Positions 2,627 through 10,239 of a DNA stretch of 64,000 nt are shown here, one piece after another. The notes under the pieces are model-generated. The model saw nothing but the letters and a program-made list of their open reading frames with translations. It was not told the DNA's origin and did not search any database. Numbering within the stretch: position 1 is the first letter of the stretch; each line of letters starts with the position of its first letter. Location of the stretch: contig NZ_FQZT01000010.1 in the NCBI RefSeq assembly GCF_900142125.1, positions 62,001 to 126,000 on the forward strand, written 5' to 3'. Origin of the DNA: Malonomonas rubra DSM 5091 (lineage in GTDB: Bacteria > Desulfobacterota > Desulfuromonadia > Desulfuromonadales > Geopsychrobacteraceae). The translations under genes were made by a program, and so were the position numbers.

Positions 2627-4117
2627 TCAATCATTATAGTACCTATCTTTCAGATGGGTATTCGCCCAGATAAATAACAATGGTCGCACCGGTGACGTTA
2701 ACCAGGGTCTCCATTTTTTGTTGTTTGACATAAAAAACAAAACATTACTGTTAAACAACTTAAGAAACTTATTGAATTCCTTGAGGAGAAAGACCTTGAA
2801 CTTCGAATATGGCTTCATACCCAAGTTCTTTAGAAAAAGATTGAAGCTCTCGTGAGCCTCGCTCGTTGAAGGCCACCAGAAAGGCGTATTTGAAGCTGTA
2901 TCTTTTTTCCTAACCCCAAACAGCTCACGAGGCACACCCGCCCTTTCTCCCAAGCGCCGAGCTATCGGTCGGTCATAATCGGTGTTCAAAGTCCATGGCT
3001 TCATTTCCTCAAGTAGGCTGATCTTTTGTATTTCTGCGGCATGTCTGATTCCCCACCAAGGAACAAGCGTCATAAATAAACCGGTTACCAGGCGAAATTC
3101 ACACATCATTTCTTCAAAATCTCCCACAGCCTCAGCTAGCCCTTGCTGCTTTCTTTCCCAGACGGTGTCACCATACCCTCCACTGAAAAACAAACTAAGT
3201 GGTTGCGGATATTCAAATATCGAAAGATTTCTTCCTCCTGACCCTCCAGAGCCAGCCCAAACAGTGACCTCATTTCTATACGCCTTAGGTTCTTGCCGGT
3301 AGGTTTGACATTGGACATTTAAATAAGTAGCTATCTTTTCACCAGAGTCAGACCCCCTCCACAGGCTTGATGAGTTGACAATAGAAAAAGTTTTTGTACA
3401 GCCTGCAGCTTGTGCAACAACAGTTGCCGCAACTGAATCATATCCGGAAGAAAGTCCTGCAATCATTTCAATGCCGTGACTACGTTTGGCAGACCTAGCA
3501 TTGGCCCCCATGCGTTCAGCCGCTTCCAATAAATAAGTTTCATAGTCTTTATAGCTTTTTACAGAAGGGAATAAATCTGGTTTATCAACCAGTACCAACT
3601 GCCCTTCATTCCATACAATATTTTTGAAATATACAATATTGATATCTGTCCCGGACGAGGGGATCGATTCTTTATAAGAGTTCAAGCCTCTTGATTCAAC
3701 AGTGAATAAATCTGAAACATAATTTGGATAATTTTCATCCAGACTAAGATCTGCAACCTTCAAAAGGCCTGGGAGGGAATTGCTAATATATATATGCCCA
3801 TCTATTTCACAGTACCAAAGCCTATCAATACCTGTTGCAGAGCTTACAAATATCAGCTGTTCTCCTCTTCTTCGAACTCCCGACCCAAAAATCAAATCAG
3901 CCTTATCGAAATCTCCGCACTCAAAACCTCCGTCCCAAACAGCCTCAACAGCCCAATTTTCAGCAATTTCAACCAATGGTCCATGAAATAAATCAGCACA
4001 TTGTGCAGAACGATTAACAACACACACCCAAGCTAACTTGGGCCAGTTTTTCTGCAAAACATAATTAATCGTAGTCATAGAAAAAACACGCTCTAGCAAG
4101 CCAGTTGACGTAAACAT
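2627..4117 (-). CDS. Asparagine synthase-like protein lacking the glutaminase nucleophile
   Basis: A 496-residue protein whose second half has a degenerate PP-loop, GLSSGYDSVAA, in place of the SGGxDS loop of asparagine synthetases, with a downstream SIVNSSSLWRGSDSGEK stretch that fits the ATP-pyrophosphatase domain. The first half resembles the N-terminal fold of asparagine synthetase B, but no Met-Cys start is present, so it should not hydrolyse glutamine. Proteins of this group occur in many polysaccharide loci, where they are suspected of amidating or otherwise activating a carboxylate. The start at 4117 overlaps the upstream acetyltransferase gene by 25 bases and is preceded by AGGA; the ATG at 4078 is an alternative without a clear ribosome site. 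It is distinct from the Cys-bearing XrtA amidotransferase. Function unproven. Confidence 0.7.
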   Translation of the reverse strand: MFTSTGLLERVFSMTTINYVLQKNWPKLAWVCVVNRSAQCADLFHGPLVEIAENWAVEAVWDGGFECGDFDKADLIFGSGVRRRGEQLIFVSSATGIDRLWYCEIDGHIYISNSLPGLLKVADLSLDENYPNYVSDLFTVESRGLNSYKESIPSSGTDINIVYFKNIVWNEGQLVLVDKPDLFPSVKSYKDYETYLLEAAERMGANARSAKRSHGIEMIAGLSSGYDSVAATVVAQAAGCTKTFSIVNSSSLWRGSDSGEKIATYLNVQCQTYRQEPKAYRNEVTVWAGSGGSGGRNLSIFEYPQPLSLFFSGGYGDTVWERKQQGLAEAVGDFEEMMCEFRLVTGLFMTLVPWWGIRHAAEIQKISLLEEMKPWTLNTDYDRPIARRLGERAGVPRELFGVRKKDTASNTPFWWPSTSEAHESFNLFLKNLGMKPYSKFKVFLLKEFNKFLKLFNSNVLFFMSNNKKWRPWLTSPVRPLLFIWANTHLKDRYYND

Positions 4118-4644
4118 TTACCCGGGTTTCCTGCAATAATTGAATAGGGCTCAACATTCTGTCGAACGACGGCCCCGGAACCAATTATGCTGCCCTTGCC
4201 TAAAACAACATCAGGAAAGATAATTGCTCCAGCCCCAATCCAACAATCATCCTCAACGATGATAGGTCCCAATTTACGAATCATCGGCTTGACCTCAGGA
4301 TGCTCATTGAGCCTCGACAAATCCGGATAACTGCTGGAAACAAACGTCACATATGGGGCGACAGCAACCCGTTCTCCGAAAGTCACCGCAGGTGGTTCTT
4401 TCGCCAGACCAAGCACCAATGCTCCGTAACCAATGCAAGTATCTTTACCAACAGGAATTCCAGACAAACGGAGCAAATGCGCTCTTAAATTTGCGTAAGG
4501 ATTGTGTGCAGCCTTATTGCGCAAAACAGTCGCAGGATAGCACCACCAAAAAAGTTGATAGAAGGTCCACGCAGGTCCAGTGTTGATTAAATCACGGATT
4601 CTAAACCCAAAGGCTAGCATTGTTTTAAAAAAATCATTCCGCAT
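4093..4644 (-). CDS. Hexapeptide-repeat O-acetyltransferase (WcaF/LbH type)
   Basis: A 183-residue protein. The N-terminal third is the WcaF-like lead segment, with FYQLFWWCYPATVLRNK, and the C-terminal two thirds show left-handed beta-helix hexapeptide repeats such as VEDDCWIGAGAIIFPDVVLG and KGSIIGSGAVV, ending in the typical IAGNPGK. The family transfers acetyl from acetyl-CoA to sugar hydroxyls in the cytoplasm, as in colanic acid synthesis. The gene sits 3 bases downstream of the flippase gene and overlaps the asparagine-synthase-like gene, so it is in the same transcript. It is likely to acetylate a precursor sugar of this exopolysaccharide; the exact sugar cannot be read from sequence. 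Confidence 0.85.
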   Translation of the reverse strand: MRNDFFKTMLAFGFRIRDLINTGPAWTFYQLFWWCYPATVLRNKAAHNPYANLRAHLLRLSGIPVGKDTCIGYGALVLGLAKEPPAVTFGERVAVAPYVTFVSSSYPDLSRLNEHPEVKPMIRKLGPIIVEDDCWIGAGAIIFPDVVLGKGSIIGSGAVVRQNVEPYSIIAGNPGKCLRQLAC

Positions 4645-6214: not shown

Positions 6215-7633
6215 TCAAAATTGAAAATACAAAAAAGCGGATTTATTCGTATCTAAAGCTATCATCAGATAAATAATTAAAGTAGCCACTCCCGCGCTGA
6301 CGGCAACCGGGAGCCTTATAAAACCAGCTAGCAACAAATCTTTCCATTTAACAGGCACAAAATGCGTAACCACCGACAGAGCTAACACACACGCAGAAAG
6401 TGCAGTCACTGGGAAGGCCTCTACCGACGAAGTAAACATCGACACGACATAATCGAACGCACTGGCAACATCATCACACCTGAAGAGTATTCGCGTTAAG
6501 GACACAATAGAAAAAACTTGGAAGACACGCAGGCCCAATAAGAATCCCCGGTACACATACGGAGGCTTATTGGCTTGCAATCTACGATTTTTAAAGAAAT
6601 GCTCCAGTCCAACAAAGCTGCCATGAATAAGACCATAAACAACAAAATTCCAACCAGCCCCATGCCAAAGGCCCACGGCAACAAAAACGATCAATACCTT
6701 TATATATAGATTGCACCAACTCCAATCGGCTATAGCCCCATACAGATAATCTCTAAAAAATGAAGACATGGAGATGTGCCAACGTTGCCAGTAATTGGCA
6801 ACACTTGTGGCAATGTACGGACGATTGAAGTTAATGGGCAAATCATACCCAAGCATTTTGCCTGTTCCCAAAGCAATATCTGTGTACCCGGACAAATCCA
6901 TGTAAATCTGAAAACTAAAAGCAACAAGTGAAAAAACCAAAAAAGCAGAGGAGTATTCATGGGGTGTATTGAAAGCAGGATCAACGATTTGAACGGCGAG
7001 AATATCTGCAATTATGATTTTCTTAACCAGGCCGCTGACAACCAATACCAAGCCTTCAGACAGGTTCTTATTGTTGGCCTTTGCTGTCTGCTTGAGTTGT
7101 GGCAAAAAGTATGATGCCCTAACTATTGGGCCTGACAACAACTGAGGAAAGAAAGACATAAACAGTACAAAATCTTTAATTGACGAACTGCTTTTTATTC
7201 TTTCAGCATAGATATCGAGGGGATACGTGATGGCTTGGAACGTCATGAAGGAAATTCCAACCGGGAGAACGACCTGTATTATGAGCTGGTCACGCTCGAA
7301 AAAACTAAAACTTAATAACTGCAAAACTGAATCGATAAAAAAGTTCGCGTATTTAAAATAGAAAAGAATCGACAAACTTAGAAGCAATGCCGCCGAAACC
7401 GCTATTTTCTTTATCCTCTGACTGTTTGACCTGAGTATCACTGAACCACAAAAATAATTTATAGCAGTCAGCGACAACAGCAAGAAGGAAAACCTCCAGT
7501 CGATCGTCATATAAAAATAGTAACTGGCTAATATGAGGACCGTTTTCTTCTGTTCATTCCTATCTTCTACTAGAAGACATACGAAGAAAATGACGAGATA
7601 AAAAATAAAAAATGGAAATGATGTCAATGACAT
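6215..7633 (-). CDS. MBOAT O-acyltransferase (AlgI/DltB-like)
   Basis: A 472-residue polytopic membrane protein with the full MBOAT signature: SGYTDIALG around residues 248-256, NYWQRWHISMSSFFRDYLYG around 280-299, the invariant catalytic His in LWHGAGWN (about 324), a second His at about 337, and the typical C-terminus ending YFQF. AlgI and DltB carry acyl groups across the inner membrane and hand them to periplasmic partners that esterify a polymer. The gene lies directly downstream (62 bases) of the adenylation-carrier-SGNH fusion gene, so the two together contain counterparts of all four Dlt functions. The acyl donor is therefore inferred to be the carrier domain of the neighbour rather than acetyl-CoA. 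No N-terminal signal other than the first membrane helix is seen. Confidence 0.9.
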   Translation of the reverse strand: MSLTSFPFFIFYLVIFFVCLLVEDRNEQKKTVLILASYYFYMTIDWRFSFLLLSLTAINYFCGSVILRSNSQRIKKIAVSAALLLSLSILFYFKYANFFIDSVLQLLSFSFFERDQLIIQVVLPVGISFMTFQAITYPLDIYAERIKSSSSIKDFVLFMSFFPQLLSGPIVRASYFLPQLKQTAKANNKNLSEGLVLVVSGLVKKIIIADILAVQIVDPAFNTPHEYSSAFLVFSLVAFSFQIYMDLSGYTDIALGTGKMLGYDLPINFNRPYIATSVANYWQRWHISMSSFFRDYLYGAIADWSWCNLYIKVLIVFVAVGLWHGAGWNFVVYGLIHGSFVGLEHFFKNRRLQANKPPYVYRGFLLGLRVFQVFSIVSLTRILFRCDDVASAFDYVVSMFTSSVEAFPVTALSACVLALSVVTHFVPVKWKDLLLAGFIRLPVAVSAGVATLIIYLMIALDTNKSAFLYFQF

Positions 7634-7695
7634 AAAAGCAACCAGATCCCACAGTGCAAAAAGTAGCTTTTTAGTATAAATCTGCTATCGTGAAC

Positions 7696-10239
7696 TCAAT
7701 TCATGAACTTTAAAGCAGTAAAAATTTTATCTGCGACATAATGTCTGCCATTTTCATTGAAGTGACTTCCACTTTCAAAAAACTTCTTTCCGCCTGGCAT
7801 TTCTTTTGCTAAGTCAATCAAAGTCAGGTCATACTTTTGGGCAATCCGCCTGATTTGATCGTTAAATTCATCGCCTACGGCAATGAGATCATCACCATCA
7901 AAACAATAGTAGTAGTACAATGCGTCCTTCAAATACGATGATTGAACGTTGTCAGAAACATTGCTATATACACGCGCATTTGTCATTAATACCGGCTCTA
8001 TACCTTCTGCCACAATATCCTGAACAAGCCTCTCATATTCTAAGCCATACTCACTCAAATCAATACTGGAAGGATTTAATAAACCAGGATTTCTGGTCTT
8101 CTGTTCCGTCAAAAAAGTCGTATTTTTCCGAATCATTTCTCTGGTCAATGCCCAGTCAGGCAAGCCCAAAGAAGGCAAAGCGCTTCGCTGCGATGCAGTG
8201 CTTAAGTTATCACGACATAATTTAGATATATTATTCATGCCGGTATAAATTACGATTGCAGATGGATTCTGAGGGAAGATTAGCCCCCGCGTTATCTTCC
8301 CAATGCTTTTTAAGTCGAGGCCCTCAATGCCACCATTAATTACGCTAACTGTTCCATGATGCACTTGATATAACCTATCTTGAAGCAACTGAGAAAGCAT
8401 ACTTTCATTGTTAGACGAAAAAGCTACGGTGGAAGATCCAACAATCGCAATTCTCAATTCATCATTCCTCAATATCGAATCAATTTCTGGGCTTCTCAAA
8501 CCAAGAGAATTTGTAGAAAAAACGATATTTCCCGTGTCATCATACCTTTCCAGCAAAGGGCGATAAGTCTTGGCCCCTACGTTTTCATTGTAAACAACTG
8601 TGCTTTCGCTGAAAGCACGGTTAAAGACACTTCTTCCATGTTTAATTTGGCTTCTTAATTGCAAAAAAAGTTCTCCGCAAATAAGAAAAAGAACTGTAAG
8701 GGCTATAAAGAGAACGACCTTTTTTTTAACCCCTTCTTGACTGCCATCATCACTACCCTGAAATTTAATTTTCTCAATTTCAGAAAACGTCAAAGACTCC
8801 CAATTTTCTGGCAGGAAACCCAAGAATTTTTCAATAGCAACCGATGCTACAACATACGACAGGGAGTCTCCACCTAGACTTATAAAACTATCTGAAGGCC
8901 TAACATCATCTGTGTTAAACACACCTTTAATGATTTCAACAAGATTTTCACTTGCGTCATTTTCATTCGCAGAAATAGGATCATTGAAAATTTGTCTATT
9001 CTCAAAGTTTTCCGATAGGATCTTTCTCTTTATTTTGCCAGTATCTGTTGACGGAAGATGGTCGACAATTTCGAAATGCAGAGCAGTCCCAGCCTGAACG
9101 TTAATGTTATTCAAGACATCTTTGACTTGGTTCTTAACGTCTAGGACATGCTCTCCCAAATGGGATTCAATAGCGACAAGGATCCCTTCACCCCGTAATT
9201 GGTCTTTTACCTTCGCAACAGCAATCCCTTTATTGATACTTGTTCTCTTACGAATCTCTCGTTCTACATATTCTGGAAAGATTTTGATCCCACCGCAGTT
9301 GATAACATCATCAGATCGTCCTTGAAAGTAGAGATACCCATCCTTTAGGTATCCTCTGTCGTTAGTTGTAAGCCAACCCTCTTCATCAACGAGAGAGACC
9401 AGCCCCCTGTCAGTGAGTTTTTGCCTAGCGACATGGGCTCCTTTGATCTTGATATTACCCTCTGTACTTATTCCTATTTCAACAGAGCCCAAAGCCATTC
9501 CGACGGATTCTAATGCCTCTCCGCTGGTCTCAGAGATATCCAGAAATGAACTCCTAGATGCCTCAGTCAAACCATAATGCTGAACAATTTTGGCGTTCGG
9601 AAAAAGTACCTTCATCCGCTCTTTTTCCGAACGTGACATATATTGGCTGCCAATTTCTATCCAAAGAACCTTTTCTCCCAAAGTTCCTATTAATTTGTCT
9701 TGGTCTAAAACGAGCCGGCACAATGTTGGGACCATAGAAATTGCATTTATCTTATCTGCCCCTAAAAGATTCGCAATTTCCAAGAGATCAAAGCCCTTAT
9801 GGGGGATATATGCTCTTCCTCCTACCGCCAAACAAGACCTTACACGTCCAAAACCAAAAGAGTGATAGACTGGCACGCCAATATACTCGGAGATTCTCTC
9901 GTCAAGGCCCATCACATTTTTCAATCTATCTACTACATCACGTAAATTTGCGTGTGTCAGGACTATTCCTTTAGGTTTACCCGTAGTCCCGGATGTAAAT
10001 GATATTTGGGCAATCCCCTCTCCACCATCAAACACATCCGCGCTATCTAGCCACCCTCCTTCAGAACCCGGTTCGACGATACGAACAAAATCAAGGCCAT
10101 CGAAGTTGCCTTCACTGTCCAGGCTAGAATCCTTCAACGGAACAACGACCTCATTATTTCTGTAGGCGCTGAATACCTCATGTATGTAATTTTTAGAATT
10201 GTGAGCGACAATGCCCACAACATTTATTTCATCGCTCAT
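7696..10239 (-). CDS. Fusion: adenylation domain + acyl-carrier domain + membrane helix + SGNH domain (DltA/DltC/DltD-like in one chain)
   Basis: An 847-residue protein with four parts in order. Residues 1-410 are an ANL adenylation domain with FTSGTTGKPKG (81-91), YGLTE (222-226), TNDRGY (292-297), GRSDDVINCGG (307-317) and the catalytic-Lys region STDTGKIKRK (397-406). Residues 430-492 are a carrier domain with phosphopantetheine Ser459 in LGGDSLS. Residues 507-526 form a membrane helix. Residues 535-847 are an SGNH domain with GSST (601-604), GMNN (667-670) and His826 in GSHFN. The first two would be cytoplasmic and the last periplasmic. The N-lobe of the adenylation domain is about 50 residues shorter than usual, and the Asp three places before His826 is Ser. 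With the MBOAT neighbour it mirrors DltABCD; the activated acid (amino or other) is unknown. No clear ribosome site precedes ATG 10239. Confidence 0.85.
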   Translation of the reverse strand: MSDEINVVGIVAHNSKNYIHEVFSAYRNNEVVVPLKDSSLDSEGNFDGLDFVRIVEPGSEGGWLDSADVFDGGEGIAQISFTSGTTGKPKGIVLTHANLRDVVDRLKNVMGLDERISEYIGVPVYHSFGFGRVRSCLAVGGRAYIPHKGFDLLEIANLLGADKINAISMVPTLCRLVLDQDKLIGTLGEKVLWIEIGSQYMSRSEKERMKVLFPNAKIVQHYGLTEASRSSFLDISETSGEALESVGMALGSVEIGISTEGNIKIKGAHVARQKLTDRGLVSLVDEEGWLTTNDRGYLKDGYLYFQGRSDDVINCGGIKIFPEYVEREIRKRTSINKGIAVAKVKDQLRGEGILVAIESHLGEHVLDVKNQVKDVLNNINVQAGTALHFEIVDHLPSTDTGKIKRKILSENFENRQIFNDPISANENDASENLVEIIKGVFNTDDVRPSDSFISLGGDSLSYVVASVAIEKFLGFLPENWESLTFSEIEKIKFQGSDDGSQEGVKKKVVLFIALTVLFLICGELFLQLRSQIKHGRSVFNRAFSESTVVYNENVGAKTYRPLLERYDDTGNIVFSTNSLGLRSPEIDSILRNDELRIAIVGSSTVAFSSNNESMLSQLLQDRLYQVHHGTVSVINGGIEGLDLKSIGKITRGLIFPQNPSAIVIYTGMNNISKLCRDNLSTASQRSALPSLGLPDWALTREMIRKNTTFLTEQKTRNPGLLNPSSIDLSEYGLEYERLVQDIVAEGIEPVLMTNARVYSNVSDNVQSSYLKDALYYYYCFDGDDLIAVGDEFNDQIRRIAQKYDLTLIDLAKEMPGGKKFFESGSHFNENGRHYVADKIFTALKFMN

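Follow-up and report, generated by a model that had tools for sequence, protein, structure and literature searches.

A two-gene candidate for a carrier-fed MBOAT/SGNH acyltransferase in an XrtA-type exopolysaccharide locus of Malonomonas rubra

Can a Gram-negative bacterium decorate its surface sugars in a Dlt-like manner with two genes? This question is raised by two neighbouring genes on the minus strand of a 64,000-nucleotide stretch of Malonomonas rubra DSM 5091 (contig NZ_FQZT01000010.1, positions 62,001 to 126,000), which was analysed as a whole and is called the window here. One gene encodes a fusion of adenylation, carrier, membrane and SGNH parts, the other an MBOAT protein. Our comparative sequence analysis suggests that they form a carrier-fed MBOAT/SGNH transferase which decorates the exopolysaccharide of an XrtA locus, a reading to which we assign a probability of about 0.62. 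It is built on the following features.

7696 to 10239, minus strand: fusion gene, 847 residues (list of open reading frames)
9004 to 10239, minus strand: compact ANL adenylation domain, residues 1 to 412, with A3 at residues 80 to 91, A4 as SFGFGR and A10 with Lys402 (Pfam PF00501, NCBIfam, motifs, alignment)
8770 to 8970, minus strand: phosphopantetheine carrier domain, residues 424 to 490, with Ser459 at 8863 to 8865 (Pfam PF00550, GGDSL motif)
8720 to 8727, minus strand: run of eight A in the gene (eight T on the plus strand), exactly at the joint of carrier and helix (sequence)
8656 to 8727, minus strand: single membrane helix, residues 505 to 528, Lys-rich on its inner side (hydropathy scan and model helix)
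7699 to 8622, minus strand: SGNH domain, predicted to be periplasmic, with Ser603, Gly640, Asn669 and His826 (fold model, PDB matches, profile, alignment)
6215 to 7633, minus strand: MBOAT O-acyltransferase, DltB/AlgI-like, 472 residues, with His286 and His324 (Pfam PF03062)
6218 to 6235, minus strand: C-terminal FLYFQF, an FXYXXF acyl-shuttle motif with Tyr469 (sequence)

The order of adenylation domain, carrier (Ser459), helix and SGNH domain on one 847-residue chain, as put forward in an original prediction made on this DNA, was borne out by the open reading frame, Pfam, motifs and fold. AMP-binding (PF00501) matched residues 73 to 257 of the fusion protein (E 1.7e-26), and PP-binding (PF00550) matched residues 432 to 473 (E 2.5e-4), passing its cut-off narrowly with 21.7 bits vs 20.8. 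The Pfam search proposed at the time therefore found these two domains above their cut-offs; it left the third below, with two GDSL-type matches within residues 596 to 838 that reached 23.7 bits vs 32.9 and 22.2 bits vs 23.6. However, fold and profile did point to an SGNH enzyme. An AlphaFold2 model covering the final 349 residues (mean predicted local distance difference test score, pLDDT, 79.9), which has a helix at its residues 3 to 35, matched CgnD (8a2n) best in the PDB, followed by the acetyl xylan esterase 7ddy, TesA and other GDSL/SGNH enzymes. Moreover, a profile of the SGNH part and 20 relatives matched 51 PDB sequences at E <= 0.01; most of these are GDSL/SGNH enzymes, with 7ddy in first place (E 6.8e-18). 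The assignment of the C-terminal part to SGNH is thus weak by Pfam profile and, going by the model, firm by fold. Measured against the 442-position MenE model of NCBIfam, in which position 65 pairs with its residue 23, the adenylation domain is compact and about 40 positions short at the N-terminus. In the hydropathy scan of the fusion protein one segment appeared at the stricter threshold, and a second, weaker one at residue 450 appeared at the looser threshold. The predicted topology of two cytoplasmic domains, one helix and one periplasmic domain agrees with the earlier proposal. Furthermore, the genome gave two matches above cut-off to ACPS-type phosphopantetheinyl transferases, one AcpS-sized and one Sfp-sized.

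The MBOAT gene follows the fusion gene on the same strand at a distance of 62 bases. Its product matched PF03062 with E 8.3e-19, and only two PDB sequences matched it at E <= 0.01, both of them DltB (E 3.2e-25), which confirms the DltB/AlgI-like protein of the original prediction. All 31 aligned MBOAT rows, two of them the window's own, share His286, His324 and Tyr469. Experiments have shown that PatA acetylates the Tyr of its own C-terminal FXYXXF motif and that an acetyl-Tyr peptide can serve PatB as donor (PMC12148441, parts of the text), whereas in the Dlt system the shuttle motif, as FLYFGF, is carried by a separate peptide, DltX (PMC11035591, parts of the text). Since the MBOAT protein of the window ends in FLYFQF, which fits the motif carried by DltX, all five Dlt-type functions are represented in the two genes, which by domain and motif carry counterparts of DltA, DltC, DltB, DltX and DltD. 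The earlier claim that the Dlt functions are packed into two genes is therefore supported, and the DltX function, which it had not included, is added to it.

Ten XrtA/PEP-CTERM models of NCBIfam lie above cut-off between 10268 and 25871, and exosortase A (XrtA) itself was found on this contig too, some 20 kb beyond the start of the window (227 bits, cut-off 208). Judged by this gene content, both genes lie in an XrtA/PEP-CTERM exopolysaccharide locus, and the Gram-negative exopolysaccharide setting proposed at the outset holds. The fraction of G and C is about 0.40 in the part with the two genes vs 0.51 next door; this low-GC part might resemble a variable end of the XrtA locus.

In the proposed mechanism, the ANL domain would activate a carboxylic acid with ATP in the cytoplasm and load the acyl group onto the phosphopantetheine arm at Ser459 of its own carrier. 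At its inner face the MBOAT protein, as the putative partner, would accept the carrier's acyl group and pass it via His324 to Tyr469 of its own C-terminal FLYFQF at the outer face. The SGNH domain, which is predicted to lie across the membrane from the carrier on the same chain, would then take the acyl group on Ser603 and hand it to a sugar hydroxyl.

How do the two genes compare with known systems? They are not a Dlt system by family membership, because they stay below the family cut-offs of both DltA (TIGR01734, 67 bits vs 559.85) and DltB (TIGR04091, 155.4 bits vs 375, though with E 2.3e-45); the pair would nevertheless work like one. A Dlt-type carrier with the phosphopantetheine Ser is present, with PF00550 above cut-off and Ser459, as is the Dlt-type FXYXXF shuttle in the form FLYFQF. 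As in the Gram-positive Dlt system of DltA, DltC, DltB, DltX and DltD, adenylation, carrier, MBOAT, shuttle and SGNH-type functions are all there. In contrast to it, there are two genes instead of five, the shuttle motif sits on the MBOAT protein, the ANL domain lacks the Asp of amino-acid adenylation and the locus is a Gram-negative exopolysaccharide locus. PatA/PatB, the alginate system AlgIJFX and the cellulose system WssHIFG share with the window an MBOAT protein with its own C-terminal FXYXXF plus a tethered SGNH-fold protein, although that of the window has Ser823 where the Asp of DxxH is usual. With the conserved His and this motif the window pair is, as far as motifs tell, a PatAB-type MBOAT/SGNH pair plus a carrier; PatA is fed by acetyl-coenzyme A (acetyl-CoA; PMC12148441, parts of the text), whereas here a carrier stands on the SGNH domain's own chain. 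AT3-SGNH proteins such as OatA and OafB likewise combine a membrane acyltransferase, an extracytoplasmic SGNH domain and an acyl-Tyr step (PMC12148441, parts of the text), but with AT3 in place of MBOAT. For AT3, acyl-CoA has been favoured over a carrier protein as donor (PMC9558356, parts of the text), and the fused ANL-carrier-AT3 relatives described below suggest exceptions to this. AT3 fusions with SGNH and alanine racemase are named in PMC9833829 (parts of the text), where the terms "carrier protein" and "AMP-binding" do not occur in the text. AlmEFG of Vibrio cholerae is another Gram-negative set of adenylation, carrier and transferase functions for a surface glycan; unlike the proposed system, it places glycine on lipopolysaccharide by means of an LPLAT-domain transferase, and MBOAT and SGNH are not mentioned for it (PMC3783018, parts of the text).

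The joint function of the fusion and the MBOAT protein appears to gain support from two sets of relatives, because the relatives of the ANL-carrier half mostly carry acyltransferase-like modules and because separate ANL, carrier, MBOAT and SGNH-like genes cluster in the same class. Two conserved peptides, used to scan a collection of 84,980 species genomes, yielded 106 ANL-carrier relatives, 80 of which were kept (loci L038-L117), and plasmid records added three; all family counts rest on these two peptide patterns, on 80 of the 106 relatives and on the 85 open reading frames analysed. The family, for which we found no name, ranges over Pseudomonadota, Chlorobiota, Cyanobacteriota and others. 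At least 150 residues follow the carrier in 78 of the 85 frames. Among the other seven, four run off their contig (L096, L100, L108, L116), L036 and L079 are pieces of broken frames, and L103, in a polyketide synthase-like setting by eye, is the sole complete unfused ANL-carrier frame. BLAST clustering divided the 78 C-terminal modules into 45 of AT3 type (42 plus 3 more), 30 divergent AT3-like ones (counting L105, which is cut off before any membrane part), two hexapeptide modules and one thioesterase. Because of these modules, we regard the ANL-carrier module as a habitual companion of acyl-group handlers. Additional carrier repeats were seen in L098, L102 and L105, and a Parabeggiatoa contig (L062:1157-6495) has two adjacent ANL-carrier fusions, one per kind of membrane module.

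Pfam Acyl_transf_3 matched 17 of 18 AT3-type and 7 of 25 divergent modules tested together, a subset of the 45 and 30, respectively, with some others tested separately. The model of one divergent module (pLDDT 88.0) had no PDB match at E <= 0.001; its best match was the human membrane acetyltransferase HGSNAT, a weak one (E 0.03, probability 1.00). Since profile-profile comparison of the two module types gave an hhalign probability of 9.9, their kinship rests on the Pfam matches (7/25) and the weak HGSNAT fold match. In an ANL tree of 80 rows (79 of the 85 frames plus the window, six frames that do not span the region being left out), the window grouped with five proteins of the divergent type, which come from Emcibacteraceae and Chlorobiaceae (support 99/98). 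Exosortase genes, found by motif pattern, flank 12 of 29 divergent-type loci, including the nearest relative L038, vs none of 41 AT3-type loci; the one in L109 is XrtD by NCBIfam. The fusion has the features of the family, namely a compact ANL domain, SFGx[GA]R, a carrier and a C-terminal acyl-handling module, and among the members seen it is the only one in which this module is SGNH. No frame of the ANL-carrier loci matched the SGNH part or the MBOAT protein at E 1e-3, apart from a single match, to a Spartinivicinus plasmid that had been included for its SGNH. We infer that the fused membrane acyltransferase of an ancestor may have been swapped for the helix-SGNH part, with the MBOAT protein providing membrane transfer in trans.

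The second set comes from the MBOAT side. Matches at E <= 1e-30 were found in 59 of 238 genomes of the window's class, its own genome counted, and flanks of about 1.5 kb were covered for 30 of the matches. Among the 29 covered loci other than the window's, at least 14 have a small carrier-like gene and 11 an ANL gene, both recognised by motif and lying at most about 1.5 kb away on the same strand; the carrier counts are motif-based lower bounds, the Pfam check being that of the L119 carrier. In L119:9668-14072, ANL, acyl carrier protein (ACP) and MBOAT genes by Pfam and a GDSL-type gene below cut-off are consecutive, and L196:7049-11298 and L197:8744-13251 have the order ANL-ACP-MBOAT-SGNH-like, judged by motif and by eye; there the fourth gene was recognised only from its position and N-terminal helix. 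These runs resemble the window in that the same four functions are adjacent; they differ in their separate genes, in an MBOAT of another clade and, for L119, in an ANL protein close to acetate-CoA ligase (694 bits vs 729), with 25% identity to the window ANL. All 17 carrier-linked proteins of the MBOAT tree fall in one clade of 23, which has FSRWILDYIF.PLQ or a close form after the first His; in this count L132, L140 and L152 are carrier-linked by virtue of an ANL gene, and one protein appears twice in the tree, as L012 and L134. L127, in the clade of the window, follows an ANL-like gene. In the window's own family, L193:1-3683 holds the end of an ANL-like gene, by eye a pyridoxal phosphate-decarboxylase-like gene, and an MBOAT gene ending in YIYFQF, all consecutive.

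Which acid would be carried? The Asp of the A4 motif in amino-acid adenylators binds the amino group. The A4 region reads SFGFGR in the window and SFGx[GA]R in 83 of 85 family frames, and the A4 Gly of the family aligns with the Asp of FDLS in a nonribosomal peptide synthetase A domain. The cargo is probably not an amino acid, because the family lacks this Asp. D-alanine or another amino acid finds no support and was rejected for the SFGFGR in place of FDxS. The best solved sequence relatives of the ANL domain include oxalate-CoA ligase, 4-coumarate-CoA ligase and MenE. Conserved neighbour genes of the relatives, whose representatives were glycosyltransferases, exosortase, TPR lipoprotein, chain-length and serine-acetyltransferase-like proteins, gave no answer as to the acid, nor, by eye, did 20 kb more of the window's own contig. 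Five AT3-type loci (L053, L069, L078, L080, L082) share a gene whose representative in L082 is type I polyketide synthase-like below cut-off, a possible hint of a polyketide-like acid.

Among the matches listed from the open-access literature, we found no account of the fusion or of an unfused ANL-ACP-MBOAT-SGNH set. The claim that no described system has this exact fusion stands within that scope, but the fusion is now one of several outputs of a larger ANL-carrier family. Similar carrier-fed machines in other Gram-negative bacteria are suggested by these relatives. Beyond this, we consider it an even bet that a large class of carrier-fed envelope acyltransferases has gone unrecognised in Gram-negative bacteria, in which a portable cassette of adenylation and carrier domains is fused in one chain with outputs that can be exchanged (AT3-like, HGSNAT-like, hexapeptide, or SGNH plus MBOAT), with unfused ANL-ACP-MBOAT-SGNH sets besides, and that the window cassette swapped its membrane acyltransferase for SGNH with MBOAT as partner. 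If so, one chain in the window would hold both the cytoplasmic start and the periplasmic end of an acyl relay. If the carriers are dedicated to such enzymes, Gram-negative exopolysaccharides could receive acids beyond those available as CoA esters. A Dlt-like surface-sugar decoration that takes four or five proteins in Gram-positive bacteria appears packed into two genes here, and the fusion, with loading and transfer on one chain, would offer a compact two-protein system for studying the acyl-Tyr relay across the membrane.

Several observations speak against a carrier-fed pair. In the MBOAT tree the window lies in the other clade, of ten rows, whose nine other rows (eight distinct) have no visible carrier gene in the stretches covered. 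The closest SGNH+MBOAT pair found, on the Spartinivicinus plasmid (SGNH 35%, MBOAT 48% identity), has no annotated ANL gene within 9 kb. The MBOAT protein lacks the FSRWILDYIFxPLQ stretch of the carrier-linked clade and has SSFFRDYLY after its first His. Of six DltB residues reported to touch DltC (PMC11035591, parts of the text), five differ in it and the sixth falls in a gap of the pairwise alignment. In the SGNH domain, the usual Asp of DxxH is Ser823, with Asp at that place in 12 of 14 aligned relatives, and block II has Gly640 vs Ser or Asn in PatB/OatA (PMC12148441, parts of the text). An XrtA-type ATPase in 3 of 41 AT3-type loci shows that the exosortase-type tie is not limited to the divergent type. 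Moreover, the same architecture beside an MBOAT gene in other genomes, to which the original prediction had looked, did not turn up and the exact fusion is single-copy in all sets searched: a second copy was found neither with the whole chain at E <= 1e-40 in 10 genus and 44 family genomes, nor with the C-terminal part in 244 class and 395 phylum genomes, where no outside match lay in an open frame of more than 510 residues (these four sets overlap and include the window's genome), nor among 72,556 plasmid records (0 with one place covering 80% of the query), nor among viral contigs. Finally, the length of the A8 run decides between a fusion and separate genes.

The MBOAT and SGNH parts could thus be an ordinary acetyl-CoA-fed O-acetylation pair of PatAB/AlgI type, with the ANL-carrier half serving elsewhere or disused. 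The clade without visible carrier genes, in which the window is sister to the Spartinivicinus pair, fits this explanation, as do the SGNH+MBOAT pairs without nearby ANL or carrier and the report that a carrier is missing from non-Dlt MBOAT/SGNH systems (PMC12148441, parts of the text). The missing FSRWILDYIFxPLQ does not settle the donor, since DltB lacks that stretch too and has WFRDFVF at that place. Intact ANL core motifs and carrier Ser, one chain spanning the membrane, which favours shared work, and ANL-carrier relatives mostly fused to acyltransferase-like modules make the acetyl-CoA-fed pair unlikely in our view. We regard it as a still smaller chance that the fusion is unreal, with two genes merged by a wrong A8 length, or both forms made by slippage, in a three-gene set that would still cooperate. 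The run sits precisely at the joint, the SGNH proteins of relatives are separate genes, and in another frame GTG, ATG and ATG starts, with AGGG upstream, precede the run by 26, 23 and 20 bases, so that nine A would give a separate SGNH gene. Yet with nine A the two genes would overlap by about 110 bases and the carrier gene would gain a tail of 25 codons, and 78 of the 85 ANL-carrier frames extend beyond the carrier boundary. Because six of the window's ten further 8-base runs lie inside listed open reading frames and leave them uninterrupted, we think that eight A, and with it the fusion, is right. A programmed frameshift at the A AAA AAG of the run is not claimed; the downstream hairpin (z -1.88) is about 20 bases away. 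A last alternative involves three other genes of the locus.

863 to 1888: free AT3 acyltransferase gene (Pfam)
1888 to 2580: SGNH gene, neighbour of the AT3 gene (Pfam)
4093 to 4644: hexapeptide transferase (Pfam)

The ANL-carrier half could feed the AT3 protein or the hexapeptide transferase, the SGNH/MBOAT parts being a separate activity. ANL-carrier relatives do carry fused AT3-like or hexapeptide modules, and the locus contains an enzyme of each kind. But comparison of the AT3 protein with the fused modules gave nothing significant (best E 0.29), and an SGNH neighbour of its own accompanies it; we hold this explanation to be very improbable compared with the carrier-fed MBOAT/SGNH transferase. 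The AT3 and SGNH genes at 863 to 2580 overlap by one base and resemble a split AT3-SGNH pair. Positions 2627 to 4117 encode a 496-residue protein with no Pfam or NCBIfam match at E 0.01, which by eye is asparagine-synthase-like.

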